Source: Entoloma clypeatum
Taxonomy: Eukaryota; Basidiomycota; Agaricomycetes; Agaricales; Entolomataceae
NCBI GenBank assembly: GCA_963565915.1
Contig: OY751485.1
Location: 5,518,001-5,582,000 of the forward strand
Length of the DNA: 64,000 bases
Direction: 5' to 3'
Shown: positions 1,972 through 32,465 of the stretch, piece after piece
Layout of the letters: each line of letters begins with the position of its first letter
Position numbering within the stretch: the stretch's first letter is position 1
Notes under the pieces: model-generated
Told to the model about the DNA's origin: nothing
The model's database searches: none
What the model saw: only the letters and a program-made list of their open reading frames with translations
Made by a program: the position numbers and the translations under genes

Positions 1972-2281
1972 TGTTGAAAGTTTTCCCATCACGTAGATTA
2001 GATTACATTAGATTACATCACGTGACCTTTACATATCTTCATTACATACTTGTTTGGTTGGTACAAACAGTAGTACGGTATATAAGACCAGGAAACTGTC
2101 AATATCAACAAGTTGTCTCTTGACTCTTAACCAGCTCCATCGCTCTCACCAGCCTCAACCGCTCTCACTAGCCTTACCCCCTCCAAACCATGTAAGTGAC
2201 CATAGCGGTATCATAGAGTACTTCCACTATAGCTATGTTGCTCAGTACACCTGTGGCTAGCGCCCAGGTGGAACTTCAACA
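1972..2281 (+). repeat. 5' LTR of copia-1
   Basis: Begins TGTTGAAAG, ends CTTCAACA. Contains a GATTA-type pentamer run, CACGTG, a TATATAA box and a GTAAGT splice-donor-like site near 2192. Confidence 0.93.
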
Positions 2282-6900: not shown

Positions 6901-7312
6901 TACCACTGGCTTCTTCATATCACTGGCGTCTGGAGCAGTAACATGGGGATCATCGGCGCAAAAGACCATCGCCCTCTCTTCCACAGAAGCAGAGTATATG
7001 GCGTTATCAGACTGCAGTCGCGCAGCAACATGGCTGAGAAGCATGCTTGCCGAACTTGGAATGCAGATCGGATCAGTACTGATCTACGGAGATAACAACG
7101 GCTCCGTCTTTATCGCATCCAACCCTGTAACTGAGAAGCGATCCAAGCACATTGACGTGCGATTCCACTTCATCAGAGAAAAAGTCTCCGAAGGGATAAT
7201 TACGGTCGAATTCATTGAAGGAGTGAACAACCCTGCAGACCTTTTAACTAAAAATCTGGGGAAAATCCTCTTTTCTAAGTTTATCCCGTACTTCGGATTG
7301 ATAAAAAACTAG
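3976..7312 (+). pseudogene. copia-1 Pol: protease, integrase, RT, RNase H
   Basis: Pol reading frame homologous to copia-2. Stops interrupt the protease region: TAG at 4093-4095 (a Trp codon in copia-2), just before LDSGA, and TGA near 4171 (CGA in copia-2). From 4301 to 7312 the frame is open for 1003 residues with an HHCC integrase finger (HKRLGHPND...CTGCLKGK), catalytic D...D...E, RT YVDDSAFLG, and RNase H (DSDWAS, SSTEAEY). Without the in-frame Gag junction it cannot be made as Gag-Pol. Confidence 0.88.
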
Positions 7313-7388
7313 GCGAAACAAAGTACCTATATATATATGTGGGAAAAAGTAAAAATGTATTTAGAAGTATGTACTAAATATGGGGGGG

Positions 7389-7698
7389 TGTTGAAACTTT
7401 TCCCATCACGTAGATTAGATTAGATTAGATTACATCACGTGACCTTTACATATCTTCATTATATACTTGTTTGGTTGGTACAAACAGTAGTACGGTATAT
7501 AAGACCAGGAAACTGTCAATATCAACAAGTTGTCTCTTGACTCTTAACCAGCTCCATCGCTCTCACCAGCCTCAACCGCTCTCACTAGCCTTACCCCCTC
7601 CAAACCATGTAAGTGACCATAGCGGTATCGTAGAGTACTTCCACTGTAGCTATGTTGCTCAGTACACCTGTGGCTAGCGCCCAGGTGGAACTTCAACA
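7389..7698 (+). repeat. 3' LTR of copia-1
   Basis: Preceded by a purine tract (ATATGGGGGGG). Begins TGTTGAAAC and ends AACA before the CGGAT duplication. Confidence 0.93.
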
Positions 7699-12848: not shown

Positions 12849-13800
12849 TCATAATTGTGGATCTGGTAGGACATAGACTCGTTCTCCTGCATAGGTGATT
12901 CCATTCTCCTGCTGATACCAATGAGGATTCTTTTTTAGGCCCTGAGCTACTTCTGTCTCCATGCGGTTCGAAGCCTTGATGCATGCGATCCATGGATTTT
13001 CAATGGTTGTGACATTTCCAATTTTGATGGAATCAGATGTTTCACCCCCTTCAAAGAATTGTTCCTCCGTGAACATCTCCATCTGTACCACATCTTCTGA
13101 TTCCAACCGTTTCAAGAATAGTCCCTCCTTGAGCATCTGGTCACTGTCTTGTGGTTCAAGTTCCATTTCATACCAGGGTAAGTGCAACAAGATGTCCGCT
13201 TTCACATTTGTCTTGCCAGGCACATGCCGTAATTCAAAGTCATAGTCTTGTAACTTCATCTCCCAGCGCCGCTGTTGTTGATTTAGGTCCTGAGGATGAC
13301 GGAAATATTCCAGGTTCTTGTGATCAGTCAAGATCTCGAAACGTTCCCTGGCCTCGAGCAGATAGTGTCTCCAATTTTTCAATGCTTCCATGACCGCCAG
13401 GAGTTCCTTGTCATATATTTCATAATTCTGTTTGGCCGCGGACATGGTCCGCAACAAGAACACGATGGGGTGCCATTTGTCATCTTGCTTCTGAAAGAGT
13501 ACTGCTCTAATTGCATAGCCTGATGCATTGGTTTCAACCCTGAACTGTCCCTCTGGTTTCGGTAATGCCAAGACTGGTGCCGATGTAATTGCCCGTATGA
13601 GACCCTCAAAGGCTTGCTGCTCTGTTGGTCCCCAGGTAAATGCTGTACCGCCTGTGAGCGCGGTGAGAGGTTTCGCAATGTTTGAATATCCTTCAATAAA
13701 ACATCGATAGAAGTTGGCAAATCCAAGGAACCTCTGAACTTCCTTTTTTGATGTGGGTGCTTGCCAGTTTCGGATCGTATCCACCTTCTCAGTTTCCATC
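12849..13800 (-). pseudogene. gypsy B RT C-terminus and RNase H
   Basis: Begins METEKVDTIRNW (end of RT), then the RT connection (FLGFANFYRCFIEGYS), RNase H (RVETNASGYAIRAVLFQ, YEIYDKELLAVMEALK, FEILTDHKNLEYF) and the start of the integrase zinc region. It ends at a TGA (12849-12851) that is CGA in copy C. The N-terminal RT is missing, replaced by the insert at 13801. ETNASG replaces the usual ETDASG, so a catalytic Asp of RNase H is also lost. Confidence 0.86.
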
Positions 13801-15580
13801 TTGGCGCTGATAGGGCCGCAATGTGTCTAGGCCTAAATCTGCGCATTTTGCATCATTTCACACTATCTCTAAGGGATGTAGAGAGTCCTAGATGAGCTCC
13901 GATTCTGAGGACTTAGTGGCGACGTTAGAGAGAGATTTTAAAGCATTTAGAGACCATGGCAATGTAGGACATAGCGCTGGTCACCACTATGGGCTTAGCT
14001 ATGATACTCGAGAGCCATGGAATCGCCTCGCGAGATAGATAAGACTATCAAGCATCTCTTGAAACGAAGTGCGAAACAAGGAGATTGGTTATATTGGATT
14101 TATCGATGACACTAGCACTGTCTACTATACATTGAGGGCTTGACTGGAGACATTCTCGCGAGAGGCTTGGCAAATGTGCGCCTCGCTTCGCGTCCAAATT
14201 GTCCATATGGGGAATAGCCAATGACATCGGATCGAACAGACCGAGATCAGGTTTGATACACCACGATCAATGTGCATTACATGGCAGACATATTGATATG
14301 GATCGGTTGCTTACCGAGATGACCCTTAATCAAAGCATCTGATACCTCGCAGTAACTCGTTGGCATCGTCGCGAGGTGTATCAATAGACCGAGATAGTGG
14401 AATAGTGTCCTCACAAGCATGATAGAGGTAGAAAATGGAGAAAAGAATGTACCTGTCGCATTGTCAACCACATGGACACATCGCGACGTCTCTAGCAAAG
14501 GCTCACTTGACTGGATACCCCTTAGCGAGACCACATGCATCCCTTTTCTATATTTATTGCAGCTCATGTATAAAGTCTCATAGTTTCGTCGTAGATAGGT
14601 TAGGTTAGATTGTGCCCCAGAATTGATAGCATTTGTCTTGTGCATCTGTCGTCGTTCGCGAGTATCATTGAAGCCTCGAGATCGTTTGGTTTGCATCGGA
14701 AGTCAGTCGCAATTGTGTTTTGTGTGTTCGAGAACTTGTCAATCGTCAAATCGTGTTATCTATCGGTCGTATTGGTCATTGTCGTGTTCGTATTTGGTCG
14801 AGATCGTGTTCGTGAAGTCTTGTTGGTCCGGAAATCACAAACCTCGGTTCATTATCTATTGAGAACTATCTCTAAGTCTTGTTTGAGACCTATCGAGCCA
14901 TCACTAAACGAGTTATTCAATTGTTGTTTGGAAGAGTCGCATCCTGAGTGATCCCACTCATCACCCCAAACTATATCGATTGAGAAGTACACATCGCGAG
15001 ACTTGTTCGGTCTTTGTTGTTGTGTTTGGTGTTTGTGTGTGTGATAGAGATATCGCTCGCGCTCATCCCCAGACTCACTTCCTTCGTTTCATCTGGAGCC
15101 CACCGCGAGGGGTGGTTCTAAAAACAAGAGTTTAACTCTATATTGGTTCGCTATTGTCCCTTTCAAGGAATTCAGCGATAGCTCTCGCTTGAGAGATAAC
15201 CCTGTCCTCTTCAAGCACAGCTGGTGTCGCACCAAGAAGCGATACAAACCCTTGCAGTCAGCATGCTCATGCAAAGTGAAATGGCCAAGCACAACCAGCG
15301 GATTGCTATGTTCAATAGCGGTCTTGCACAACCGTTTGCTGCATCGCTAAATGCTGTTCAGCAACTCTATTATAATCTTAATACATATGCACCACTTCGC
15401 GGTGCTATGCCATCGATACCCATCCCTTATACCCCTGTTCAGAGCTATTCAATGTCTGGAACATTGAATCCAGTTGCTCATGATGTGGCGATGCCTGCGA
15501 ATTGGATCGCGATGCAAAGGCAGTATGACAACATCACAGTCACACCAGTGCAGCAGCTGCTACCTGTTCAGAACAATCTC
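13801..15580 (+). mobile_element. 5' fragment of an unrelated LTR retroelement inside gypsy B
   Basis: Plus-strand sequence unrelated to gypsy replaces its RT. Layout: an LTR-like stretch of about 1.28 kb ending CA at 15090-15091, two nt, then a classical tRNA-type primer-binding site TGGAGCCCACCGCGAGG (15094-15110), then the beginning of an ORF. The 3' end joins gypsy at about 15580 within a shared CCCGGTGTTTGCG. The LTR start may be TG at 13802 or 13808. It has a TATA-like stretch near 14548. Confidence 0.6.
15224..15580 (+). pseudogene. truncated gag-like ORF of the inserted element
   Basis: Open frame after the primer-binding site, reading VSHQEAIQTLAVSMLMQSEM onward for about 119 codons, Gln/Met/Pro-rich, then running into gypsy protease sequence in a meaningless frame. 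Position suggests gag; I do not recognise the family. The true start is not clear (GTG at 15224; a later ATG at 15263). Confidence 0.35.
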
Positions 15581-15646
15581 CCGGTGTTTGCGACCATCAA
15601 GGTTAATCCTGAAATCCGAGCGTTTGGTTCGACATGTTGTTGGACA

Positions 15647-16099
15647 TCAGTTAAATGTTACCATGCCGGTTGTCCAATTGATTGTGGGGTTGTGGTGTAC
15701 CAACCAGTCATGTCCCAAGAGCATGTCTGTTCTCCCAATGTCCAGTACCATTGCTTCCATGGTTTCCTGATGTGCTCCCAAATCCAGCTTGACTTCGGCA
15801 AGTTGGCTCGCTTTCTGTTGTCGATTTGGTGATCCATCCGCATTTAGAATCACTATGGGCGGTATTCCTTGCGTGGGGAGGTTCTGTTCGCATACTATTC
15901 TGGGGTGGATGCATGTGCGTTCACATCCGCTGTCAACCTCAGGTTGGATAACCTTTGGTCCTCGTTGTGTTTTGAGCTGAGCTAACAGCCTGATCTCTCG
16001 TTTTTTTGGAGGTTTATCTCCCTTCACAATCTTAGTCGACGCAGTGGCTCGCTTGGCAGGGATGACATAGGTTCTATTGTCTGCAGTCATACAAGGCAA
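15647..16099 (-). pseudogene. gypsy B protease region
   Basis: Retropepsin-like aspartic protease: EVDSGCERTCIH (catalytic DSG), ILNADGSPN and MLLGHDWLVHH. It is interrupted on its C-terminal side by the foreign insert. The basic stretch RAKRATASTKIVKGDK lies upstream, toward gag. Confidence 0.8.
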
Positions 16100-16140
16100 G
16101 CAAGTCCATTTAATAGATAAGGGTCGCGACTTAGCGTCGT

Positions 16141-16446
16141 TTAATCGGACCCTTCGGGAAAATCCTTCTCGTCGGCTTCTAAGATTGTGATTTCATCATT
16201 CTCGGCATCTTCCTCGGACACCTTCCTAACCCTTCCGGAGTTCTTCTTCGGCTTGCGGCAGTTGTGTGCGATATGGCCTTCTTGGTCACAGTTGAAACAC
16301 TTGCGATCATCTTTCTTCTTTGGAGGGCTACAGTCTTTAGCCAGATGACCGAAGCGTTGACAGTTGTAGCAACGGGCTACTCCTGCTTTGTCGATCTCCA
16401 TGGCCTTGCCCTGACCACCATAAGTAGTACCCAATCTGGTGCACAT
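16141..16446 (-). pseudogene. gypsy B gag zinc-knuckle part
   Basis: Two CCHC knuckles (CYNCQRFGHLAKDC, CFNCDQEGHIAHNC) plus acidic tail. Separated from the rest of gag by an in-frame TGA at 16459-16461 that is CGA in copy A. Confidence 0.82.
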
Positions 16447-16458
16447 GTCGCTGCCACC

Positions 16459-17712
16459 TCAAATGACCAGTGCATGTCCTTCCATCTGTCGTCCTTTGTT
16501 TCGGATCTCCTTTGCATAATCGGTGTACGTCTTGCCATCACTAGCCACTTGTTCAGAGATTCTGCGGTTGACGTTCTTCTCTAGGATGTATTTCCCAGTT
16601 TCTTCGCTAAGGTTTGACAGCTTCAAGAGTTCTTTGAATTCATCCAAGGATTCATCAACAGTGCGTTTCTCTTGTTTCAGGACTTTGAGTCTTGCTTTGG
16701 CAGCGACCGATTTGATGGCAATGGAGAATCGTGTGGCGATATCATCGGAGAAACCTAGCCAGGTGATGTTTTCCTTGTCAACAGCAAGAGCGTCTAACTT
16801 GTTACTGGCCCAGTGCCTGCCAGATCCTTCCATCGTGCGGGATAGCACCGCAAGAATCTTCTGATCATCTGTGAGGCTCTTTTGGAATCTAATGTATAGT
16901 TTGGTGGCTTTCCACCACTCGCCAAAGGTGTATCTGTCCTTGAACATCCCAGGATCCTTGATGATCTTGGATGTATCCATTGTTTGTACAGCCGGGGCTT
17001 CTGCCATGTCTAGAGTCTGCGGAGGAGAAGAGGGGTCGGGTTGTTGGGATGAAGATGGGGTTCGGGATACAGGTAGGCGTCTGTTCAATATCTGACTGCG
17101 CGGAGTCAAAAGTAAATTCGTCAGGGGACTCGTCGGCGGAATCGGTGGCAAAACGTTCAGAGTATTTCCTCTGTAAATCTCTAAGGAATCTCTGTTCCTG
17201 CGCGTCTGTTGGTCTCGAGAAGGGGTCAAGTCTCTCGTTTCGTGCCCAGCGGTTGTACTCGGTCTGTTGTTCTTCGGTGGTGAAGTGGGCATAGATCTGC
17301 TGCTTCGAGTAAGACGTGATGATGTGGCTCTGGGACGTCTCGATGTGAGCGTCCTAATCAATCTTCTGATAACGGTTGTCTGGACACCGATAAACTCTCT
17401 GATCTCTGTGATCCGACCTGTCTGAGGTCCTTCTTGAACGCGAAAGCTTTCGAGTTTGTTCTGTCGGGCGTTGTAACGCGCGATCTGGTGTTGCCGAGCA
17501 AGATGGATGCTCTCTGCTATCTCACCGTGGGGGCGATGCTCATCGTTGTCTAGTTCTTCGTCAAGCACCTGCTGTAGGATGCGACGGATCTCCGATTCGA
17601 TGTACTGCTGGATAAGCGTAAAATCGATACTGTCTCGAGGACTTAGCTCCTCCTGTCGGGCTTCTGGCATGCTGAATGGGTTACTGGTGAAGTCTTCAAA
17701 GAAGCGCGACAT
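16459..17712 (-). pseudogene. gypsy B gag, truncated by a stop before the knuckles
   Basis: ATG at 17712 (MSRFFEDFTSNPFSMPEARQ) in this copy; A and C have ACG here and could start at MPEARQEE. A Ser/Arg/Pro-rich linker follows, then the capsid-like core (TFGEWWKATKLYIRFQKSL) ending GHALVI at the shared stop. Nearly identical to copy C in this part, with a few differences mostly at CpG sites. Confidence 0.82.
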
Positions 17713-17772
17713 CTTGACTCGTCTGGTAGTTGCTCTCTTCGCTCTGGGCAAACCTAACGAGATTTAGCAACT

Positions 17773-17897
17773 TGTTATGCTTAACAAACTGTTCCAAGGT
17801 TTGGACAGAGTATGCAGGAAGTGGAAAGGCGAAGAGCAATGTGATTGCTAAATCTAAGGAATCTAGCTATGCTACAGAGGGTTTATATAGATACTAG
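17773..17897 (-). repeat. truncated 5' LTR of gypsy B
   Basis: LTR sequence from TGTTATGCTT to about GATACT, then abrupt change to minisatellite. The 11-nt self-complementary site lies beside it at 17760-17770. Confidence 0.8.
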
Positions 17898-18090
17898 GCT
17901 GTTGGGCATAAGAGGACACTGTTGTGGATGAGGGATGGCTGTTGGGATGAGAGGCAGCCATTGGGAATGAGAGAGTACTGTTGGGAACAAGAGGGTGCCA
18001 TTGGGCATGAGCAGATGCCATTGTAGACGAGGGATGGCCATTGGGGCAAGAGACAGCCATTGGGGATGAGAGGGTGCTGTTGGTGATGTA
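17898..18090 (-). repeat. 20-bp minisatellite, block 2
   Basis: Ten or so units of the form GCCATTGGGCATGAGnnnnn, the reverse complement of block 1, abutting the broken LTR of gypsy B. Confidence 0.8.
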
Positions 18091-18266
18091 GTGTTTAAAA
18101 GTCCAGTCCAGTCTCGTTTTTGACCTCCAAAAGGGAGGGACCAAGAACCAGACCGGTCTCTCACTGACACTGCCTCTTCCAAAAACGAGAGCAGACCAGT
18201 CAGGCACCAGTCACACCAGTCTGTTTACTCTGAACTCACAAGACTGGACTGGTTTAAACCAGTCCA
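18091..18266 (+). mobile_element. small palindrome-ended repeat, copy 2
   Basis: Inverted ends: GTTTAAAAGTCCAGTCCAGTCT at 18093 and AGACTGGACTGGTTTAAAC at 18241-18259, nearly reverse complements. The right end contains a perfect 20-bp palindrome at 18246-18265. Non-coding, about 170 bp, matching 10378-10550 in opposite orientation. Consistent with a MITE-like element; the target duplication is not clear. Confidence 0.5.
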
Positions 18267-18309
18267 GACCTATGTATATTACAACAAAAACAATTAATTA
18301 ATTATTACA

Positions 18310-18725
18310 CGATGCCGTTGGGCATGAGTGGATACCGCTGGGAGTGAGTGGGCACTGTTGGGTGCAACTGGATGCATTGGGTGCATTGAGCACAGGCGTG
18401 GGCCATTGGGCACAGTTGGTGGCAGTTGGACATGAGNNNNNNNNNNNNNNNNNNNNNNNNNNNNNNNNNNNNNNNNNNNNNNNNNNNNNNNNNNNNNNNN
18501 NNNNNNNNNNNNNNNNNNNNNNNNNNNNNNNNNNNNNNNNNNNNNNNNNNNNNNNNNNNNNNNNNNNNNNNNNNNNNNNNNNNNNNNNNNNNNNNNNNNN
18601 NNNNNNNNNNNNNNNNNNNNNNNNNNNNNNNNNNNNCATAACAACCATTGGGCATGAGTGGGGACTGTTGGGTGTGAAGGGGGGGCCATTGGGCACGAAG
18701 GGGGGGCCATTCGGCACGAGTCAAC
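18310..18725 (-). repeat. minisatellite block 3 with a 200-N gap
   Basis: Units of GCCGTTGGGCATGAG type at 18310-18436 and 18637-18725. Positions 18437-18636 are exactly 200 N, an assembly gap inside the array, so true array length is unknown. Confidence 0.8.
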
Positions 18726-18730
18726 ACTGT

Positions 18731-19131
18731 TGTTATGCTTAACAAACCGTTCCAAGGTTCGGGCAGAGTATGCAGGAAGTGGAAAGGCGAAGAGCAAAGT
18801 GTTTGCTAAATCTAAGGAATCTACTATAGTACAAGAGGTTTATATAGGTACTGACTATAGGCGGTAGTGGATGAGTCAGTACTGCGGAAGGCAGTGTGCA
18901 TGAGTAAGGCGACTGCGGAAGGCTATGTACAGTGAGTAAGCTGACTGCGGAAAGCGAGTCAGCGCGGGAGCGAAGTATACTAAAGGGGATGACGAAGTAA
19001 TGTAATGAGTCAGACTGGGAATCGAAGGTTGCGAAAGTAGATATTAGACATAGTGAGTTCGTAAGAGGGCGCCGAGTCGGGCCGATAAGTAAAAGATATG
19101 ACGTGGTCCTCATACCGTAGAGTCCGTAACA
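18731..19131 (-). repeat. 3' LTR of gypsy C
   Basis: TGTTATGCTTAAC to CCGTAACA, 401 bp, followed by the purine tract on the minus strand. Confidence 0.93.
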
Positions 19132-19165
19132 TGTTCCCCTCTCCAAGCTCTGTGTCCTCACAGAG

Positions 19166-19537
19166 TCACTGTCCCCATCCCTTGTTGTTGCTGGGATTGG
19201 ACCAGTTTGGACTCTCCTTGAGGCTCCAATCATATATCAACTCCTCGTTGATGGCTACGGCGAGTTCGAGGCCTTTGATAGCCAGCTGAATACGTCGATT
19301 CTCGATTACGAGGGTGCTGGTGTAGTTTCCGAGAATTTGTTTTTCCTCGGGACTCGGGGCGATGGGTAGGTTGGACAGTGAGTGGAGCCGGATATGCATC
19401 TGGCGATGGAGGAGGTCGGCAAGGGAAGTTTTGAGAGCGTGGATTTGGTCTCTCATGGAGAGTGCTTCGTTCATGAGGACGGCGATGGCGGGGTTAATGT
19501 CGGTGGTGGAGGTGGAGGTGACAATGGTGTTGGACAT
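19166..19537 (-). CDS. gypsy C small 3' ORF, 123 aa, unknown function
   Basis: Counterpart of 11408-11779, same length, ATG at 19537 (MSNTIVTSTSTTDINPA). Differences from copy B are few (for example ALKTSLADLL versus ALETSLANLL) and keep the helical pattern and the SPNWSNPSNNKGWGQ end. It is intact although the pol of the same copy is broken. It sits 3' of pol, the place where some LTR elements keep an extra gene; no transmembrane segment or signal peptide is seen, so it is not env-like. Function unknown. Confidence 0.6.
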   Translation of the reverse strand: MSNTIVTSTSTTDINPAIAVLMNEALSMRDQIHALKTSLADLLHRQMHIRLHSLSNLPIAPSPEEKQILGNYTSTLVIENRRIQLAIKGLELAVAINEELIYDWSLKESPNWSNPSNNKGWGQ

Positions 19538-19670
19538 GGCGGTGAGGATGGTTGAGAGGTAAAAGAAGAATGGGGTGGCTATATTGGGCAGGGAGAAGAC
19601 TAGAGCGGGGAACTCGGTGTGTGGTTGACTGATGAGGTCGATACTGCCATGGGTTTTGAGAACTCGTCTT

Positions 19671-20555
19671 TTATCGTGGATGAGACGGGTTCTGCCGATG
19701 GAAATCACGGATCAAATCTTGAGCGTTCTGAACATTAGCTCGAGGTTCTCATGTGTTCTCTTCTGGGCCATATCCTTCCCACTGGACGAGGTACTGGATC
19801 TTTCCACGGAACTTTCGAGAGTCTAGGATTGTAGACACATGGTACTCTTCTCGTCCTTCGACGATGATCAGATCAGGGGCTGGTTTATTTTTCTGGATGG
19901 CATACTTCGGAGTTTCATATGGTGACAACAGGGTCTCGTTGAACACAGGGTGAATCATCTTCCAAGTCTTCGGAAGATCAAGAAGGTACGCGCTAGCTCC
20001 TTTCTTCTCTAGGACTTTGAACTTCGCAGCGAACTGCGGTCCCTTATCGCTGATGATCTTCTTGGGGATCCCATGAAGCTTCCATATCTGATCCCGATAG
20101 ATCTTGGCTAATCCTTCAGCTGATAGTTCCACGGTTGTCGGAATGAGGTGAAGCATCTTCGAATGTCTATCCGTGATGACCAGAATTGCATTTTTTCCAT
20201 CAGATTCTGGTATCGGTCCCACGACGTCGATTCCTATGTCTTCCCATGGGTGACTTGGTGCTGCATGGGGATGTAGCGGAGCATGTCGCTTTTGTCGATT
20301 AATCTTGTTGCGTTGACAAGTGTCGCAACCCTTCACATACTTCTTCACATCATGCAGTATGGTAGGCCACCAGTAGGTGTGAGTGAGGAGTTCATGTGTC
20401 CGGTACTGTCCTGGATGTCCGGCTACTGGTGCATCGTGACTCGAACATCAATTCTTGTCGTAATTGTGGGTCTGGCAGAACATAGACTCGTTCTCCTGCA
20501 TAGGTGATCCCATTCTCCTGCTGATACCAATGAGGATTCTTTTTTAGGCCCTGGG
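19671..20555 (-). pseudogene. gypsy C integrase and chromodomain, deleted
   Basis: Integrase with its zinc region ([14 protein letters not shown]) and the first two catalytic Asp ([23 protein letters not shown]). It then jumps directly to [17 protein letters not shown]: the part carrying the catalytic Glu is deleted in frame near 20021. A two-base loss near 20440 shifts the upstream frame. The chromodomain has a TGG-to-TGA stop at 19749-19751, then HRQNPSHPR and TAA at 19671-19673. Confidence 0.87.
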
Positions 20556-21809
20556 CTACTTCTGTCTCCATGCGGTTTGAACCCTTGATGCGCGCGATCC
20601 ACAGATTTTCGATGGTTGTGACGTTTCCAATTTTGATGGAATCAGATGTTTCACCCCTTCAAAGAATTGTTCCTCCATGAACATCTCCATTTGTACCACA
20701 TCTTCTGATTCCAACTGTTTCAAGAATAGTCCCTCCTTGAGCATTTGGTCACTGTCTTGTGGTTCGAGTTCCGCTTCATACCAGGGTAAGCGCGACAGGA
20801 TGTCCACTTTCGCATTGGTCTTGCCGGGTACATGCCGTAATTCAAAGTCATAGTCTTGTAACTTCATTTTCCAGCGTCGCTGTCGTTGATTTAGGTCCTG
20901 AGGACGACGGAAATATTCCAGGTTCTTGTGATTGGTCAAGATCTCAAAGCGTTCCCTGGCTTCAAGCAGATAGTGTCTCCAATCTTTCAATGCTTCCACA
21001 ACTGCCAGGAGTTCCTTGTCGTATATCTCGTAATTCTGTTCAGCCGCGGACATGGTCCGCGACAAGAACGCGATGGGGTGCCATTTGTCGTCTTGCTTCT
21101 GAGAGAGTACTGCTCCAATTGCATAGCCTGATGCATCGGTTTCAACCCTGAACTGTCCTTCTGGTTTCGGTAATGCCAAGACTGGTGCCGATGTAATTGC
21201 CCGTATGAGACCTTCAAAGGCTTGCTGCTCTGTTGGTCCCCAGGTAAATGCTGTACCACCTGTGAGCGTGGTGAGAGGTTTCGCGATGTTTGAGTACCCT
21301 TCAATAAAACGTCGATAGAAGTTAGCAAATCCAAGAAACTTCTGAACTTCCTTTTTTGATGTGGGTGCTCGCCAGTTTCGAATTGTATCCACCTTCTCAG
21401 TTTCCATCTCAACACGTCCCTCACCAACCACATATCCCAATATAGGACATTTCATTACTTCCCATAAACACTTCTTCTCCTTTAGGAACAAATCATTGTC
21501 TGATAGGATCTGTAGGATTTCTTCAGTGTTTTGCGCGAGTTCTTCCTTGGTTTTACCAATAACCACAATGTCATCCATGTAGATCACACAGATACGTCGG
21601 TGGATCTGGTCCCGGAATAGACTAGCCATCATTTGAGAAAACATTCCTGGGGAGTTGCAAAGACCGAAAAACATGACCAATGGTTCGAACAATCCTCGAC
21701 TGGTGAGGAAGGCAGCTTTCCATTCATCGCCCTCCTTAATCCGGACATTGTTATAACCCCACATGATGTCCATTTTATTGAAGTAGACCGCATCTTTCAG
21801 CACGTCCAA
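20556..21809 (-). pseudogene. gypsy C reverse transcriptase and RNase H
   Basis: RT palm (FNKMDIMWGYNNVRIKEGDE, FGLCNSPGMFSQMM, IYMDDIVV) followed by RNase H (RVETDASGYAIGAVLSQ, YEIYDKELLAVVEALK). Catalytic Asp residues are present in both. The C-terminal end shifts frame near 20658 after loss of one C in a CCCCC run present in copy B. Confidence 0.88.
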
Positions 21810-22640
21810 GAGATCAGATATTCATGGGAGTGGGAACTTGTCTTTGACCGTGAATTTATTGACCATGTGGTAATCTTGTACCAATCGTTTGGAGCCATCC
21901 TTCTTGTTGATGAAGAAGCAAGGGGAGGCATAAGGGGATTTGGACGGACGGATCTTTCCTGTTGCTAGACCCTCGTCAATGAATGCGTCCAATTCCTCTT
22001 GTTCCTTTTGTGTCATAGGATATGTATTTCCTCCTAGTTCCTTTGGTGCGTCCGGTGTAAGTTCGATACCATGGTCCCATTCCCTCTCCTTTGGGATCTT
22101 ATCAAAGTTCTCCTTCTCAAAGAGATGAGCAAGTTGTTCAATATATGAGGGTTGTTTGGTTGTGGGAGTGACAGCTTCCAAAATAGGGTCTCCAGGCTTC
22201 CATTTCTGATCCGACTTTTGGGTGCATCTTTGTCGCGCACCTCAACCATGTGAACCCGGTGTTTGCGACCATCAAGGTTAATCCTGAAATCCGAGTGTTT
22301 GGTTCGACATGTTGTTGGGCACCGGTTGTCCAATTGATTGTGGGGTTGTGGTGTATCAACCAGTCATGTCCCAAGAGCATGTCTGTTCTCCCAATGTCCA
22401 GTACCATTGCTTCCATGGTTTCCTGATGTGCTCCCAAATCCAGTTTGACTTCGGCAAGTTGGCTCGCTTTCTGTTGTCGATTTGGTGATCCATCCGCATT
22501 TAGAATCGCTATGGGCGGTATTCCTTGCGTGGGGAGGTTCTGTTCGCATACTATTCTGGGATGGATGCATGTGCGCTCACATCCGCTGTCAACCTCAGGT
22601 CGGATAACCTTTGGTCCTCGTCATGTCCTGAGCTGAGCTA
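21810..22640 (-). pseudogene. gypsy C protease and N-terminal RT
   Basis: Protease motifs DSGCERTCIH and LGHDWLIHH, then the RT fingers (ASPCFFINKKDGSKRLVQDY). A TGA replaces the Cys codon of the usual PLPCINDLL motif near 21822, and a small frame change lies near 22210. The product cannot be made as one polyprotein. Confidence 0.82.
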
Positions 22641-22796
22641 ACAGCCTGATTTCTCGTCTTTTCGGAGGTTTATCTCCCTTCACAATCTTAGTCGACGCAG
22701 CGGCTCGCTTGGCAGGGATGACATAGGTTCTATTGTCTGCAGTCATACAAGGCAAGCAAGTCCATTTAATAGATAAGGGTCGCGACTTAGCGTCGT

Positions 22797-24326
22797 TTAA
22801 TCGGACCCTTTGGGAAAATCCTTCTCGTCGGCTTCTAAGATTGTGATTTCATCATTCTCGGCATCTTCCTCGGACACCTTCCTAACCCTTCCGGAGTTCT
22901 TCTTCGGCTTGCGGCAGTTGTGTGCGATATGGCCTTCTTGGTCACAGTTGAAACACTTGCGATCATCTTTCTTCTTTGGAGGGCTACAGTCTTTAGCCAG
23001 ATGACCGAAGCGTTGACAGTTGTAGCAACGGGCTACTCCTGCTTTGTCGATCTCCATGGCCTTGCCCTGACCACCATAAGTAGTACCCAATCTGGTGCAC
23101 ATGTCGCTGCCACCTCAAATGACCAGTGCATGTCCTTCCATCTGTCGTCCTTTGTTTCGGATCTCCTTTGCATAATCGGTGTACGTCTTGCCATCACTAG
23201 CCACTTGTTCAGAGATTCTGCGGTTGACGTTCTTCTCTAGGATGTATTTCCCAGTTTCTTCGCTAAGGTTTGACAGCTTCAAGAGTTCTTTGAATTCATC
23301 CAAGGATTCATCAACAGTGCGTTTCTCTTGTTTCAGGACTTTGAGTCTTGCTTTGGCAGCGACCGATTTGATGGCAATGGAGAATCGTGTGGCGATATCA
23401 TCGGAGAAACCTAGCCAGGTGATGTTTTCCTTGTCAACAGCAAGAGCGTCTAACTTGTTACTGGCCCAGTGCCTGCCAGATCCTTCCATCGTGCGGGATA
23501 GCACCGCAAGAATCTTCTGATCATCTGTGAGGCTCTTTTGGAATCTAATGTATAGTTTGGTGGCTTTCCACCACTCGCCAAAGGTGTATCTGTCCTTGAA
23601 CATCCCAGGATCCTTGATGATCTTGGATGTATCCATTGTTTGTACAGCCGGGGCTTCTGCCATGTCTAGAGTCTGCGGAGGAGAAGAGGGGTCGGGTTGT
23701 TGGGATGAAGATGGGGTTCGGGATACAGGTAGGCGTCTGTTCGATATCTGACTGCGCGGAGTCAAAAGTAAATTCGTCAGGGGACTCGTCGGCGGAATCG
23801 GTGGCAAAACGTTCAGAGTATTTCCTCTGTAAATCTCTAAGGAATCTCTGTTCCTGCGCGTCTGTTGGTCTCGAGAAGGGGTCAAGTCTCTCGTTTCGTG
23901 CCCAGCGGTTGTACTCGGTCTGTTGTTCTTCGGTGGTGAAGTGGGCATAGATCTGCTGCTTCGAGTAAGACGTGATGATGTGGCTCTGGGACGTCTCGAT
24001 GTGAGCGTCCTAATCAATCTTCTGATAACGGTTGTCTGGACACCGATAAACTCTCTGATCTCTGTGATCCGACCTGTCTGAGGTCCTTCTTGAACGCAAA
24101 AGCTTTCGAGTTTGTTCTGTCGGGCGTTGTAACGCGCGATCTGGTGTTGCCGAGCAAGATGGATGCTCTCTGCTATCTCGCCGTGGGGGCGATGCTTGTC
24201 GTTGTCTAGTTCTTCGTCAAGCACCTGCTGTAGGATGCGACGGATCTCCGATTCGATGTACTGCTGGATAAGCGTAAAATCGATACTGTCTCGAGGACTT
24301 AGCTCCTCCTGTCGGGCTTCTGGCAT
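22797..24326 (-). pseudogene. gypsy C gag with shared stop before zinc knuckles
   Basis: Starts MPEARQEE at 24326; 403 codons to TGA at 23115-23117, then two CCHC knuckles (22797-23102). The TGA is at the same codon as in copy B and is CGA in copy A. Apart from this stop the gag appears intact. Confidence 0.85.
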
Positions 24327-24415
24327 GCTGAATGGGTTACTGGTGAAGTCTTCAAAGAAGCGCGACGTCTTGACTCATCTGGTAGTTGCTCTCTTCGCTC
24401 TGGGCGAACCTAACG

Positions 24416-25030: not shown

Positions 25031-25668
25031 CCAAACATCATGTGACCCTCCAAACCCATCCAAACGGTGCGGGTTTTTGAAGGGTAAGAAATTCTGACCC
25101 TCACCCTTACCCTCCCTTACCTTTCACCAAAGCCCTGAGGGTTTTGTGTACCCTTGTCCATCACTACCTGCAACTCAAAAGGAACAACTGAAGTCAAAGC
25201 AACAACTCTATGCTTTTACAATGGACTGCATGGATGGTCTAACATCTTGATCTGCTCAAAACATCGCTTCGCAGTGTATATCTCAACAATTAATGCATTC
25301 CCAACATGTTCTGCACATCTGGATGATGCGGCAAAGATCCTCACCCACACCATCGCTGACTTTGAAGCTCAAGGAGGCGAGTTGGATGATGGTAAGTTTC
25401 CCTCCTCATTTACCAGCAAAATATGTATTACTGAGCTTTTATGAAGTATCTCAAAATATGTCTATTCTAGTAGGAGATTAACCATTTCATTGTGCTCTCC
25501 TCCATTCCTGATCTTGGCATATAGGTGTTCAAGGCAGCTTTCTATCCAGCCAAATTCAAGAATGCTGTGCCCAAGCATGCTGTTGCACTGGCAATAGCAT
25601 GTGCAAGTACCTCACACAGCTCACTATTGCCTTCTAATTCTCTGTCACAGATCCAGAATTGTCTCGAA

Positions 25669-25978
25669 TGTTGAAACTTTTCCATCACGTAGATTAGATT
25701 AGATTAGATTATATCACGTGACCTTTACACATCTTCAATTACATACTTATTTGGTTGGTACAAACAGTAGTACGGTATATAAGACCAGGAAACTGTTAAT
25801 ATCAACAAGTTGTCTCTTGACTCTTAACCGCCTCCATCGCTCTTACCAGCCTCAACCGCTCTCACCAGCCTCACACTCTCCAATCTATGTAAGTGGTCAG
25901 AACGGTATCGTAGAGTACTTTCACTGTAGCCGGTTGCTTCAGTACACCTGCGGCTAGCGCCCAGGTGGAACTTCAACA
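25669..25978 (+). repeat. 5' LTR of copia-2
   Basis: TGTTGAAACTTTTCC to CTTCAACA, with CACGTG near 25717 and a conserved GTAAGT at 25889-25894. Confidence 0.94.
25776..25782 (+). promoter_or_regulatory. TATA box of copia-2 LTR promoter
   Basis: TATATAA in the conserved stretch ACGGTATATAAGACCAGG, shared by every copia LTR in the window including the solo copy. Confidence 0.6.
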
Positions 25979-26322
25979 GGTTATGGGCCCCGGATAGCAG
26001 AGGGACTTGGGAAACGCTGGCAACAGCGAGTACCTGCCCACTCTACCCTGGTTGGCGAAGAACCGATCGAAAGATCTAGGTTCTGAGTCTTACTTCTTCA
26101 CATATGAACCTGGGAACGTCATTACGACAAGTACCTGTCATGAGACGTCCCTAAGGGGATTGACCTAGTACACTCCATGTGGAAACGTTGATCACACCTT
26201 ATACGTTTCTGACATATAAAGGGTTTTCCCGTGACTGCTATTCCTAAAGGGAATATGTCATAAGGAATCATTTAATTGTTTTCTTGAATCATATTCATAA
26301 CACATCGGGAACCCTTTCTTAG
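25889..26322 (+). other. candidate leader intron of copia-2
   Basis: Donor GTAAGT in the LTR (conserved in all five LTRs seen) and acceptor CCCTTTCTTAG 11 nt before the gag ATG. Removal would delete the primer site (GGTTATGGGCCCCGG at 25979-25993) and upstream ATGs, giving a translation-only message. Predicted from sequence only. Confidence 0.35.
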
Positions 26323-26333
26323 ATTCATCTAAA

Positions 26334-29300
26334 ATGTCTACCTCTCGCTCCGCCCTCGACTCCATCGCCATCTTCAACGGCATCGACTACCAAAGTTGGG
26401 CCGAAAAAATGAAGTCATACCTTCTCCATCAAGGAGTCTGGCGCCTCGTATCCGGCGACATTGAGTGCCCCGACATCAAGGACTTTACGGTCATGGTCTC
26501 CACCCCTGCCTCAGCCACTTCGACATCTGCGACTCAACCTCCGGCGGTCACTATCACTGTCGACCATCCCGCCTTCGCCAAGGAAAAGAAGGCCTGGATC
26601 AGAGACGACGACATGGCTCAGGATTCCATCTGTCTCAAAGTCTCCGAAGCAATCAGGAGGCACATCAAGGACGCCTCAACCTCAAAGGAAGCTTGGACGA
26701 CGTTGAAAGACGCGTATTCGAAGGTCTCCCCCGCCACCATTTTTGGCGACTTCAAGGCTGCTGCCTCCTTCAAGCTCTCGGGTCGCGACCCCGTACCAGA
26801 AATCGAGCGCCTCGGATCACTCTTCGCTCGCCTCAGCGACGCGAAGTTCATCGTGCCTGATCTGATGCAGGCTATGATCCTGGCGAGTGCCATCCCTGAC
26901 GCTTGGTCGTCTCTCTCCACCGCCCTCTTCCAGGTCTACGACGCCGATGACTTCACGTGGCAGGCCGTTGCTGACAGCATCGTATCAGAGTACAGGCGCA
27001 AGTATGCAATTGGGTCTACTCGGGCGTCCAACGAGCAGGCCCGGAAAATCTCCGGGACCAAGCGAAAGGGGCAAGACCCCAAATGGGAAAAGCAAACAGT
27101 GCCGAGTACCTCGCATAACAATGCTGACGAGCAGCCTAACTCGACCGACCCAAGTACCGCTTCTGAAAAGAAGAAGGGAAAGGGACGCTGGCGCAACCAG
27201 AAGAAACGTGCCAACAACGCAGACAACGAGTCCGACCAAGCCGAGGAAATGGTCGAGTTCATCGCACCAGCCATTGAGCACATCCCTCGTCGTCCTGCTC
27301 CTTGTCCCCTTCCTCCTCGTCAACGTGCCCCTTGCCCTCTCCCTCCTCGTCATGCACCTACCTTCACCACTGTAACGGGCCGCGGGAAAACTACGAGTAC
27401 CGCGCAGCCTGACTCGGAGAAAATGCAGTCTCTCCTGCAACGCATGAACCTGCCTCCTTCTCAGTACACCGGGCTTCCCTCAGGAAAGCCGTCTGTGTGG
27501 AAAAAGAATGAGAGGGTGCGAAGACTCGCCCGAGAGATCGGTGCTCAACCCTCTGGGTCAAACCTCCGTATCTTAGATACCATCATTCCTGACATCGACG
27601 AAAGGCCGGCTAAACAGCGTCGCGTAGCCCCGTCGATAGAAGAATCGCTGAAAATGATGGACATCGACCAGGAACGGATGGGGCCGGATGTGTTTGAGGA
27701 TGAGATAGAACTTGACGGTTCGTCGAAACCCTTTCTTGAACCTTATCAATTGCGGAATGCTAATAATACCTCTCAACAGACGTATAATATATTAGCCAGT
27801 ACCAGTACAGAGTGCGTAGATCACATTAGCAGTGATCTACATAAAAAATATATTAAACATTTCGCCTCTTGTACACATTGTAAGGAAAAAGAACGCGCGC
27901 AATGGATACTAGATTCCGGCGCCTCTTTACACTTCACCTATGAGTTTAAGGACTTCGCATATTATAGACCTCTCACGGTCAAGCGATTCGTCCAAACTGC
28001 AGCTAAAGGGAAGAAACTGGAAATACTCGGAGTTGGGGCCGTTCCAGTACGGCACACCCTAAATGGGGAAATAAAAACCCATCTTCTCAGACCGGTGTTC
28101 TACATCCCGGACATGGACACACGCCTATTGTCCCTAGGCATCTTCCTTAACCATGGTTACAAAGTAGACGGGACTTGTGGAGAAATTAACATCTCCAAAG
28201 GGCTGAGCAAAATCCAGTTTTCGCCCCACATCCTTGGTCAAACCATTTACTGGTTAGACACTGAAATACGCTATGACCAGATCCATGCGATCTCGAGCAA
28301 AATCACTGTTGAAACATGGCACAAGCGCCTTGGTCACCCAAATGATCAAGCACTCCGAAAGATTCCCACCAGTACCAAAGGGGTACCTGAAACACTAGTA
28401 CGTGAGAAATCACAGGAAAGTTGCACAGGTTGCCTCAAAGGGAAAATGCCAAATCAGTCATATCCAAATTCGATAACAAGGGCAACAAAAACCTTTGATC
28501 TGATCCATTCCGATCTTAAACAAATATCCACGGCATCATACCACAAATATAAATATTTCCTTACGTTTTTGGACGATTTTTCATCCCACGTCTGGGTCGT
28601 CTTGCTTAGGAAGAAGTCGGATGCTGTCATAGCACTACGACAATTCCTTGCGATGATCCAGAATCAATTCGCCGCCACTCCTAAGAAATGGCGAGTTGAT
28701 GGAGGTGGAGAATTTAACGAATACAAGGATGTACTTGCCGATCATGGAATTCTGATCGACGTCACGCTCCCGTATCAGCACCAGCAGAACGGTCGAGCAG
28801 AACGGATAAATCGAACCCTGTGGGAGAAATCTCAGGCCTTGCGCTTCGACGCGTGCTTACCACCTATGTGTTGGGAGTTCTGTTTAGAACATGCAGCTTT
28901 TCTCTACAACAGAACCCCCATGCAGCGTCTCGAATGGAATACCCCTTACTTCAGGGTGACCAATGAGATCCCCGATATGTCAAGCATCAGAGTCTTCGGA
29001 TGTCAGGCATATGTGTATATCCCAAAAGAAAAACGTAGAAATTCCCTGGAGTCTAGATCTCGATTGATGATTTATCTCGGATCAAAGCCAGGGGTCAAAG
29101 GATACCGTTTCATGGATCCTGAGACTAATACAATTTTCATGGGTGGGAAAGCTATCTTTGATGAAAGCAAGTACCCTAGATGCCACATCGACCCTTTGCC
29201 AGAGAACCATCCAGAAATGGAAAACCCAGAACCGGCTGATGAGTTTGAGGACCTCATCCCCGGAAACGATGACAATGACAGTCATTACGAAAAACCTCAC

Positions 29301-31124
29301 GACCCTGTTCCCACTGGACAGGATCACCCTGAATCAGACGATGATTTGCCGTGTAGCGAACCCGATGACGAGCCACGAGTACCCACTCCAGAGCCCGAGC
29401 AAGTACCAGATCGACCAATCAGGGAACGACGAGTTCGGAGAATGCCAGACAGCATCTATGGGGAAGACACCCCTGCTTCTGATCTTGAAAAAATGGATCG
29501 AAGACGTAGACTGGGCGGTCAAACGGCATGGATGAACGATCTCCTAATGGAGGCAATCTCCATCCAAGTAGGCATCATCGAAATGTCACACAAAGACATA
29601 TACTCTCTTCCGAACAAAGAAGATTGGTATGCGGCAGAACGAAAAGAGCTAGACATGCTCAAAAGCCGCGGGGTGATCACGGAGTTAGTACCCCTACCTA
29701 CAGGGAGGAAAGCTCTAAGGAACAAATGGGTTTACAATGAAAAGTCCGATGGGCGTCTGAAAGCACGCCTCGTCGCAAAAGGCTTCTCACAGGTAGAAGG
29801 GATCGACTTTGATCAGATCTTCTCACCAGTCGTAAGATATGAAACCGTCCGACTAATACTGGCATTGACAGCCCTTGAAGGGTGGTTCATGACTCTTTTG
29901 GACGTCTCATCAGCCTTCCTCTATGGAACGCTCCGTGAAGTTATCTATATGCGACAGCCTGAGGGCTACATAGTAAAAGGGAAAGAAAACCTCGTGTACC
30001 GACTATACAAAGCCCTATACGGACTCAAGCAGGCCGCATTAGCCTGGTGGAGGGAACTTGATTCCTCCATGAAAAAGCTCGGCTTTACCCGGCTTCACTC
30101 CGATGCGGGAGTTTTCATTCACACAAGTACCAAAGGGGAAACTGTGATCGCCGTCATTTATGTCGATGACTCTGCTTTTCTCGGCACAAACTGGGAATAC
30201 ACGCTGGAAAAGAAGAAGGCCTTCATGACAACATGGGAATGTAGGGATCTAGGCCACCTAGTCCCTGATGGGGAACCAAAAGAATTTCTCTCTATCCAAA
30301 TAAGGCAACGTGGGAAGCGGATCTTCATTGATCAAGTACCCTACCTTGAGAAAATTCTCGCACGCATGGGGATGAGCGAATCTAATGCCACCCATACCCC
30401 ACTCCCGACGGGCTACAAACCCATGAAGTCTGAAGATGAACCCAATGCAGAACTCAGATCCAAGTACCAATCCGTCATCGGGTCACTATTGTACTTAATG
30501 ATCGGGACAAGACCCGACATTTGTTTCGCCGTAATCAAAATGTCCCAATTCTCCGCAAACCCTACCAAATGCCATTTAGAAGTGGCAAGGGATATTTGCA
30601 GGTATTTGAAGGCGACAAAAAATTACGCGATCATGTACGATGGTGATTCTGGGAAAGGAATCTACGCATTCACAGACTCTGATTGGGCGTCAGACGAAAA
30701 CACCAGGAAGTCCACCACTGGTTACTTCGTATCGCTGGCATCTGGAGCAGTAACATGGGTTTCATCGGCGCAAAAAACCATTGCCCTCTCTTCCACGGAA
30801 GCAGAATACATGGCGCTATCAGATTGCAGTCGCGCAGTGACATGGCTTAGAAGCATGCTTGCCGAACTTGGGATGCAGATCGGATCAGTCCCGATCTATG
30901 GAGATAACAATGGCTCCGTCTTTATCGCATCCAACCCTGTAACTGAAAAGCGGTCCAAGCACATTGACGTGCGATTCCACTTCGTCAGAGAAAAAGTATC
31001 CGAAGGCATCATTACGGTCGAATTCATCGAAGGAGTGAATAACCCTGCAGACCTTTTAACTAAGAATCTGGGGAAAGTCCTCTTTAGCAAGTTTATCCCG
31101 TACTTTGGATTACTTAAAAACTAG
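26334..31124 (+). CDS. copia-2 Gag-Pol polyprotein (1596 aa)
   Basis: ATG at 26334 (MSTSRSALD). Order: copia-type Gag (residues 1 to about 460; no CCHC knuckle but a basic KKKGKGRWRNQKK tract); protease with DSGAS near residue 527; integrase with HHCC finger near 660-705 (HKRLGHPND...CTGCLKGK), Asp near 722 (IHSDLK), Asp near 785 (VDGGGEF) and Glu near 822 (GRAERINR); an acidic/proline linker; RT from about 1130 with YVDDSAFLG near 1277; RNase H with DSDWAS near 1443 and SSTEAEYMALSD. Compared with copia-1 the Gag tail has a duplicated APCPLPPR motif. It would replicate by reverse transcription in cytoplasmic particles. It can probably be made only from RNA in which the 27718-27779 segment is retained. 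Confidence 0.93.
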   Translation: MSTSRSALDSIAIFNGIDYQSWAEKMKSYLLHQGVWRLVSGDIECPDIKDFTVMVSTPASATSTSATQPPAVTITVDHPAFAKEKKAWIRDDDMAQDSICLKVSEAIRRHIKDASTSKEAWTTLKDAYSKVSPATIFGDFKAAASFKLSGRDPVPEIERLGSLFARLSDAKFIVPDLMQAMILASAIPDAWSSLSTALFQVYDADDFTWQAVADSIVSEYRRKYAIGSTRASNEQARKISGTKRKGQDPKWEKQTVPSTSHNNADEQPNSTDPSTASEKKKGKGRWRNQKKRANNADNESDQAEEMVEFIAPAIEHIPRRPAPCPLPPRQRAPCPLPPRHAPTFTTVTGRGKTTSTAQPDSEKMQSLLQRMNLPPSQYTGLPSGKPSVWKKNERVRRLAREIGAQPSGSNLRILDTIIPDIDERPAKQRRVAPSIEESLKMMDIDQERMGPDVFEDEIELDGSSKPFLEPYQLRNANNTSQQTYNILASTSTECVDHISSDLHKKYIKHFASCTHCKEKERAQWILDSGASLHFTYEFKDFAYYRPLTVKRFVQTAAKGKKLEILGVGAVPVRHTLNGEIKTHLLRPVFYIPDMDTRLLSLGIFLNHGYKVDGTCGEINISKGLSKIQFSPHILGQTIYWLDTEIRYDQIHAISSKITVETWHKRLGHPNDQALRKIPTSTKGVPETLVREKSQESCTGCLKGKMPNQSYPNSITRATKTFDLIHSDLKQISTASYHKYKYFLTFLDDFSSHVWVVLLRKKSDAVIALRQFLAMIQNQFAATPKKWRVDGGGEFNEYKDVLADHGILIDVTLPYQHQQNGRAERINRTLWEKSQALRFDACLPPMCWEFCLEHAAFLYNRTPMQRLEWNTPYFRVTNEIPDMSSIRVFGCQAYVYIPKEKRRNSLESRSRLMIYLGSKPGVKGYRFMDPETNTIFMGGKAIFDESKYPRCHIDPLPENHPEMENPEPADEFEDLIPGNDDNDSHYEKPHDPVPTGQDHPESDDDLPCSEPDDEPRVPTPEPEQVPDRPIRERRVRRMPDSIYGEDTPASDLEKMDRRRRLGGQTAWMNDLLMEAISIQVGIIEMSHKDIYSLPNKEDWYAAERKELDMLKSRGVITELVPLPTGRKALRNKWVYNEKSDGRLKARLVAKGFSQVEGIDFDQIFSPVVRYETVRLILALTALEGWFMTLLDVSSAFLYGTLREVIYMRQPEGYIVKGKENLVYRLYKALYGLKQAALAWWRELDSSMKKLGFTRLHSDAGVFIHTSTKGETVIAVIYVDDSAFLGTNWEYTLEKKKAFMTTWECRDLGHLVPDGEPKEFLSIQIRQRGKRIFIDQVPYLEKILARMGMSESNATHTPLPTGYKPMKSEDEPNAELRSKYQSVIGSLLYLMIGTRPDICFAVIKMSQFSANPTKCHLEVARDICRYLKATKNYAIMYDGDSGKGIYAFTDSDWASDENTRKSTTGYFVSLASGAVTWVSSAQKTIALSSTEAEYMALSDCSRAVTWLRSMLAELGMQIGSVPIYGDNNGSVFIASNPVTEKRSKHIDVRFHFVREKVSEGIITVEFIEGVNNPADLLTKNLGKVLFSKFIPYFGLLKN
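27718..27779 (+). other. 62-nt retained intron at the Gag/Pol junction
   Basis: Starts GTTCGT, has a branch-site-like TGCTAATAA and a pyrimidine run, ends CTCAACAG. Copia-1 joins the two flanks exactly (CTTGACG followed by ACGTATAA). Since 62 is not a multiple of three, removal puts TAA three codons after the junction and ends translation after Gag. Confidence 0.75.
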
Positions 31125-31189
31125 ACGAAAGAGTACCTATATGGGAAAAAGTAAGATGTATTTAGAAGTATGTACTAAATATGGGGGGG

Positions 31190-31499
31190 TGTTGAAACTT
31201 TTCCATCACGTAGATTAGATTAGATTAGATTATATCACGTGACCTTTACACATCTTCGATTACATACTTATTTGGTTGGTACAAACAGTAGTACGGTATA
31301 TAAGACCAGGAAACTGTTAATATCAACAAGTTGTCTCTTGACTCTTAACCGCCTCCATCGCTCTTACCAGCCTCAACCGCTCTCACCAGCCTCACACTCT
31401 CCAATCTATGTAAGTGGTCAGAACGGTATCGTAGAGTACTTCCACTGTAGCCGGTTGCTTCAGTACACCTGCGGCTAGCGCCCAGGTGGAACTTCAACA
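31190..31499 (+). repeat. 3' LTR of copia-2 with purine tract
   Basis: Preceded by ATATGGGGGGG at 31179-31189; TGTTGAAAC to AACA. Confidence 0.94.
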
Positions 31500-31669
31500 T
31501 CGAAGAATATGAGATCTTTGGCTACCGACAACGAATCAACTTCAAAGGCAACATATACCAGTCAGTTTATGATGGTGTGCTCAAGCTTATTGGGGAAACT
31601 AAGGAGGACGAATATTATGGTGGAAAATGGGATAACATGTGTTGTCATTGGGCGGCTGAGGGAATGTAG

Positions 31670-32082
31670 GTACTATGACAGTTTGTTATGAATCTTCTAA
31701 TAATTTCGATCCAGAAAAACCATGGAGCCAGCCAGTGCACCCTGTCGGCACAACAAGTGTGTCTTCCTCAATTAGCAATAGCTTTCACACTTCCATCTTC
31801 TATTATCCTGAGCCAACCATATCTCAATTTCTGTTGCTCATGTCTTTGGCTGGAATACTTATTGGTAACCCTCGCAAAATCCTCATTGTTCCTTTCTATT
31901 TTGCATCCTATAGCCTGTCAGTCATGGTAGTAGAGTAACTGCAATTTAATGTTTTGAATCACCTACATTTCATGAAATAAGGGCAGTGGACAAACCCAAT
32001 CCAGCTATTTTCATGCTATTGTTACAGATTGGTATGTTGGCTGGCTCATCTTGTGTAGAATGGCCCCATCCTGGCTAGGTCT
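31670..32082. other. no gene seen
   Basis: AT-rich, short frames only (31675-31938 is an 87-codon frame without recognisable features). May hold the 3' end of the disrupted gene. Confidence 0.3.
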
Positions 32083-32388
32083 TGTTGAAACTTTTCCATC
32101 ATGTAGATTAGATTGGATTAGATTATATCACGTGATCTTAGACATCTTCAATTACATACTTATTTGGTTGGTACAAACAGTAGTACGGTATATAAGACCA
32201 GGAAACTGTCAATATCAATAAGTTGTCTTGACTCTTAACCAGCTCCATCGCTCTTACCAGCCTCAACCGCTCTCACCAGCCCCACCCTTCTCAACCAAGT
32301 AAGTGACTAGAATGGTAGAGTAGAGTACTTCCACTGTAGCTGTGTTGCTCAGTACATCTGCGGCTAGCACCCAGGTGGAACTTCAACA
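32083..32388 (+). repeat. solo copia LTR
   Basis: 306 bp, TGTTGAAAC to CTTCAACA, flanked by the duplication GGTCT (32078-32082 and 32389-32393), so a full element inserted and was later reduced by LTR recombination. About as old as or older than the two full copies. Confidence 0.93.
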
Positions 32389-32465
32389 GGTCTGGCTAGC
32401 ACTGTTCAGAATTGACACGAGACTGCACAGAATTGATATGAGACTGTACAGTGCTACACAGATAA

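Follow-up and report, generated by a model that had tools for sequence, protein, structure and literature searches.

The copia-2 retrotransposon of Entoloma clypeatum, located at 25669–31499 of the analyzed window (64,000 nucleotides of contig OY751485.1), very probably carries a real, facultatively spliced intron of 62 nt at the border between gag and protease. In the best explanation, to which a probability of about 0.87 was assigned, the host spliceosome would remove this segment from only part of the element RNA (an 'exonic' or facultative intron). The RNA that keeps the intron would be translated into Gag-Pol and would be the usual template for new copies. In the spliced RNA, the frame would shift and meet a stop at the third codon, giving a 463-aa Gag alone. 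Since the spliced RNA would code for Gag alone, the element could produce Gag in excess. Junction-dependent decay should not act on the spliced RNA, since its stop lies past the junction. In addition, spliced RNA would now and then be packaged, reverse transcribed and integrated, giving intron-less copies such as copia-1, which lies in the same window.

The genome (60.08 Mb, 20 contigs) was searched for copies of the element. The following features of copia-2 were annotated:

25664–25668 (left) and 31500–31504 (right), plus strand: target-site duplication TCGAA flanking copia-2 on both sides
25669–25978, plus strand: 5' LTR, 308/310 positions the same as in the 3' LTR
31190–31499, plus strand: 3' LTR, paired with the 5' LTR at 25669–25978
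26334–31124, plus strand: Gag-Pol frame with the segment retained, ATG at 26334, 1596 codons and a stop
26334–27717, plus strand: gag part upstream of the intron, 461 codons and 1 nt, PF14223 with E 1.2e-20
27718–27779, plus strand: putative facultative intron (splicing deduced from DNA) between gag and protease, 62 nt, phase 1, precisely missing in four genomic copies
27718–27723, plus strand: donor GTTCGT; GTNNGT in 32/34 distinct variants, GTCCAT in 2
27759–27764, plus strand: predicted branch site GCTAAT with the branch A at 27763; GCTAAY in 34/34 variants
27777–27779, plus strand: acceptor CAG; 34/34 variants
27785–27787, plus strand: TAA that would be read only after splicing, the end of Gag alone (463 aa); TAA or TGA in 34/34 variants
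27903–28160, plus strand: start of Pol, protease region with WILDSGAS (Pol_BBD), assigned by Pfam match and motif

The copia-2 frame matched the Pfam families Retrotran_gag_2, Pol_BBD, gag_pre-integrs, rve, SH3_retrovirus and RVT_2. Integrase lies ahead of reverse transcriptase, which is the Ty1/copia domain order, and membership of this group agrees with the presence of PF14223, PF22936, PF00665 and then PF07727, of two LTRs and of TCGAA on both sides. Note that the 5' LTR contains GTAAGT at 25889–25894, a good donor by eye. A solo LTR lies at 32083–32388, shortly 3' of copia-2, with GGTCT at 32078–32082 and 32389–32393 (also by eye).

The preliminary description had placed a segment GTTCGT...CAACAG at 27718–27779, at the gag/protease border, and had stated that the element encodes Gag-Pol with it and Gag alone without it. 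The segment was confirmed in the sequence, and the reading frames agree with both predicted products. The 62 nt are arranged as GTTCGT...TGCTAATAA...CAACAG, with the predicted branch A 16 nt from the 3' end. With the segment kept, a single Gag-Pol frame of 1596 codons is open; with the segment removed, the flanks read ...EIELD-D-V-stop, where the stop (TAA) is the third codon past the junction.

For the evaluation of chance, a strict rule was applied (donor GTNNGT, CTRAY 8–30 nt before YAG, a length of 45–75 nt that is not a multiple of three, a stop within 10 codons), and 27718–27779 was the sole candidate over the whole copia-2 ORF. Among 1000 synonymous-codon shuffles, a strict candidate appeared at no more than 150 nt from the border in 1 and anywhere in 140, which rules out a chance look-alike at the gag/protease border under this rule. 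A looser rule, which also accepted GTRNG donors and AAG acceptors, allowed 45–90 nt and dropped the frame condition, gave six segments at four donors; loose intron signals by themselves would not be remarkable in this ORF.

For the conservation of the segment, 75 records that carry the intron were compared; they come from 60 distinct places and gave 34 distinct variants (33 nt, the segment and 35 nt). These variants are related and were largely picked as best matches, and the following counts are neither independent nor a random sample: CAG and GCTAAY were found in 34/34, GTNNGT in 32/34 with GTCCAT in the other two, and a stop at the third codon in 34/34. The donor, branch site and acceptor pointed out in the preliminary description were thus upheld by the family comparison. 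The records L128–L130, with an upstream part of 31 nt, were dropped from the variant count; all three have CAG and TGA, and L130 has the donor GTTTGT. The segment length was 62 nt in 28 variants, 59 nt in four, 56 nt in one and 51 nt in one. An 11-nt deletion was found in the segment of L139, where the unspliced frame is broken. Among the 28 variants of 62 nt, signal positions were variable in 1/11 cases versus 31/51 for the other positions (Fisher p 0.0023). The dipeptide read behind the junction in the unspliced frame varies (YN, CK, FE, YK, YD, CN), while the spliced frame keeps a stop there, TAA in 27 and TGA in 7 of the 34 variants. A stop kept while the unspliced residues change is the pattern expected from selection on the spliced reading. 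The conservation of the segment may also be partly due to the peptide that it codes. A search that tolerated three mismatches located segment ends followed by exon 2 at 471 places, and no more than four of these could be intron-less copies.

Four genomic places have the flanks without exactly the segment, namely C1:5521961 (copia-1), C12:2950321, C11:4136313 and C1:1137114 (L014). The features of copia-1 are as follows:

1972–7698, plus strand: copia-1, intron-less copy, with CGGAT on both sides
1972–2281 and 7389–7698, plus strand: copia-1 LTRs, 305/310 positions identical
2647–3975, plus strand: gag frame of 442 codons, uninterrupted, ending with TAA at 3973–3975; the junction at 3967/3968 is without exactly the intron
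3968–7312, plus strand: pol frame, shifted relative to gag and interrupted by two in-frame stops at 4091 and 4172

Both pol stops are missing from the intron-bearing sister L135, which is identical to copia-1 at 596/601 positions; besides the 62 nt, the five differences are all transitions. Copia-1 seems to derive from spliced RNA by reverse transcription and would be able to code Gag, not Pol. The preliminary description did not point out that this second copia element of the window is intron-less. When the copia-1 border was used as a query, 788 candidates were obtained and 40 of them were scored. Among these 40, four, copia-1 included, match without an insertion, and five copies with 99% identity on both sides hold extra sequence at the exact junction point. 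This extra sequence is 62 nt long in L079 and L080, the two that were read.

A tree was built without records that have short flanks (L139 included) and with repeats of identical rows removed (52 records to 40 rows); the long-branched L059 was kept. In this tree the four loci require four changes, and well-supported branches force four. The nearest intron-bearing copies over 220 nt differ among the loci: L135 for copia-1 (99.1% upstream and downstream), L136 for the C12 locus (98.2% upstream, 98.6% downstream), and L141 upstream (95.5%) and L140 downstream (97.7%) for C1:1137114. For the C11 locus, L139 is nearest upstream (92.3%); downstream, copies of the window type are closest (90.5% versus 84.8% for L139), and the first 100 nt downstream are identical to L139 at 97/100 positions. 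Copia-1 and the C12 locus share 199/220 positions upstream and 215/220 downstream, and each matches its intron-bearing kin better. Downstream of the junction neither of the two is clearly nearer to one of L135, L136 and L137 than to the others, and it is the upstream flank that marks their losses as separate. In L014, a mosaic, the upstream flank is closest to the 59-nt subfamily (L141) and the downstream flank to L140, the pattern expected from template switching; the spread of an intron-less junction by recombination could in principle occur.

The tree and the flanks point to four separate losses of the segment. The ends of the deletion are identical at the four loci, and only 1 nt is shared between the two ends. 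Repeated precise loss is predicted by reverse transcription of spliced RNA, which would explain the four loci simply; repeated deletion with one shared end base would not. A single deletion inherited by all intron-less copies was ruled out by the tree and the nearest copies, subject to the caveats on the upstream flank and on recombination. A late gain of the intron was also ruled out by the intron-bearing kin near each intron-less copy in the tree. At the C12 locus, TATCC is duplicated on both sides and the LTRs are the same at 309/309 aligned positions; judged by their duplications, copia-1 and the C12 copy are complete insertions. No matching target-site duplications were found for the C11 and C1:1137114 copies; the 3' LTR of the former is broken off, and the LTR pair of the latter was not resolved in the stretches read. 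No intron-less copy turned up in a search of the 59-nt subfamily, and no relatives in viral contigs. Since intron-less copies are few, the spliced RNA may be scarce, or mostly barred from reverse transcription, or such copies may seldom spread. Their share (4 versus about 470 segment-bearing sites) could give an approximate measure of how seldom spliced RNA undergoes reverse transcription.

The precise losses and the conserved signals with a conserved stop in the spliced frame strongly support the removable intron that had been proposed. On sound grounds, we infer, as the preliminary description did, that splicing of the segment would set the Gag:Pol ratio. Both RNAs would then be present together, the losses would have passed through the spliced one, and the ratio may be under selection.

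It is very unlikely that the segment is an ordinary coding linker between Gag and protease and that chance deletion of DNA produced the intron-less copies. The long frame indeed runs through the segment in most of the copies examined, the peptide bits GSS and ANN recur, and small deletions of 6 and 11 nt exist within it. However, a linker would leave unexplained four deletions with identical ends, 1 nt shared and different nearest kin, the retention of intron signals and an out-of-frame stop while residues vary, and a border site seen in just 1/1000 synonymous shuffles.

With the intron taken as real, its role could be in silencing rather than in Gag supply, where a weak intron would stall the spliceosome and feed host RNA interference. 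T at donor position +3, as found here, is not the commonest choice, which would suit a weak intron. Precedents are described in the accessible part of PMC7175516, where inefficiently spliced transposon RNAs of Cryptococcus feed host RNA interference and a cryptic intron of fission-yeast Tf2 is tied to silencing. However, an element should shed a silencing trap, yet the segment ends persist at about 470 places, and a stop past the junction is maintained even as the codons change; this role is considered unlikely. In a further reading, the main RNA would be the spliced one and a +1 frameshift in the short tail of Gag would give Pol; in its favour, Pol of the spliced RNA would follow the junction immediately, in the +1 frame. 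Intron-less copies would then be competent and hence common, but four were observed versus about 470, and an uninterrupted frame across the segment would be superfluous, which makes this reading extremely improbable. Partial splicing by the host, with Gag in excess, is preferred to these readings.

The preliminary description knew of no account of such a design. However, the accessible text on barley BARE1 (PLoS One 2013, PMC3735527) describes the same design, namely a single Gag-Pol frame with a 104-nt GT/AG segment at the start of protease, whose removal shifts the frame to a stop three residues past Gag. According to the same text, BARE1 splicing was demonstrated by RT-PCR, the spliced product makes up about 12.5% of the total and half of the polyadenylated BARE1 product, the spliced RNA is nearly full-length with coding capacity for Gag only, and genomic copies of it could not be amplified in barley (PMC3735527). 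Like BARE1, the fungal element has a small GT-AG segment at the gag/protease border, where the frame is open when the segment is kept and its removal leads to a stop just past Gag (within about three codons in BARE1 and here, at the third codon in 34/34 variants). Unlike BARE1, a plant element, its segment is 62 nt, the size of many host introns, and its splicing is deduced from DNA. In addition, the exclusion of spliced RNA from reverse transcription that is reported for BARE does not seem to hold here, since four copies lack the intron precisely; the mechanism does not require such exclusion. We claim that the element probably works like BARE1, a likeness drawn from the description of BARE1; descent from BARE1 is not claimed.

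In the accessible text of PMC8892269, a related scheme is described for Arabidopsis EVD and the shGAG RNAs of other plant Ty1/copia elements, in which GAG-POL comes from unspliced RNA and GAG alone from spliced RNA. Early termination of spliced GAG RNAs is known from EVD (PMC8892269) and from sunflower elements. The EVD-type intron is longer and its removal takes out the whole protease domain, as stated in the part of a review available (PMC12786077). The division between a Gag-alone spliced RNA and a Gag-Pol unspliced RNA is shared with the fungal element, but the EVD intron is longer and coupled to premature polyadenylation, in contrast to the 62 nt here. Both LTRs and duplications are present in copia-1 and the C12 copy, which speaks against a spliced RNA that ends early; the spliced RNA here may be of full length, unless template switching, from which the 3' part could come, completed the copies.

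Splicing also gives a Gag-only RNA in Drosophila copia, where the part of pol that is excised measures about 2.9 kb (PMC3735527, accessible text), in contrast to the 62-nt segment here. For Ty3/Gypsy elements, the accessible part of PMC10085805 lists a -1 frameshift, an in-frame stop and a single ORF as modes of Gag/Pol expression, and splicing is absent from that list. The need for more Gag than Pol is common to fungal elements with frameshift, readthrough or a single ORF; the splicing route differs. No Gag/Pol border intron in a fungal copia element was found in the accessible parts of the literature searched (including PMC7175516, PMC5014426 and PMC10085805), which is weak evidence, as most subscription papers lie outside that search. 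The intron is well supported by the DNA evidence, and the element would add one more case to a design already known from plants, with putative spliced retrocopies as a new feature. As far as the searches reach, the fungal host, the host-sized intron and the putative genomic copies of spliced RNA are new. A high-copy family outside plants with natural intron-less retrocopies would extend the design and allow it to be measured with genome sequences as the sole data.

For comparison with host introns, 20 gaps in host CCT genes were examined and 19 were solved; these are predictions, several of them weak. The best solutions were 52–58 nt long in 11/19, had GTNNGT in 11/19 and both in 7/19, with a scoring that favoured such donors. 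GTTCGT was the best-scoring donor at two of the 19 solved gaps (L098 and L111, the latter with a poor acceptor). In length and signals, the 62-nt segment resembles these predicted introns.

Other copia families were scanned over 600 nt before protease. No strict candidate was found there in L016, L018, L020, L022, L023, L025, L026 or L075 (an 801-nt locus), nor in family 2 (L027, L033). With a looser branch rule, applied to L016, L018, L020, L023, L026, L027 and L033, only the family 2 candidate appeared. Family 2 (L027–L044) has 45% identity to the copia-2 family over 491 aligned columns of protease-integrase and frames of up to about 1745 codons. Its border candidate, GTATGT...GTTAAC...CACAG, is 52 nt long and fails the strict rule by its branch (TTAAC); its removal makes the eighth codon a stop. 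Both ends are intact in 17/18 loci, L040 being cut off at the left, and a search for an intron-less family 2 copy found none. These features are suggestive of a border intron, as a weaker candidate. The distance from the start of the border segment to the protease W is 184 nt in family 2 versus 185 nt in the copia-2 family. Since the putative donors lie at a matching place in two families of 45% identity, splice-controlled Gag supply may be old in the lineage. It is possible, though rather doubtful, that border introns in the two families reflect an old strategy of this lineage for splice-controlled Gag, which arose separately from that of plants; spliced RNA leaking into replication would seed the genome with copies coding Gag but not Pol. 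If so, such copies could be Gag donors or brakes on the parent element.

Elsewhere in the window, Ty3/gypsy-type frames (RNase H, RVT_1, Retrotrans_gag) were found on the minus strand at 12849–24374, seemingly as two similar copies, and the minus strand at 58700–59938 holds a frame that matches NPHP3_N (E 1.6e-7).
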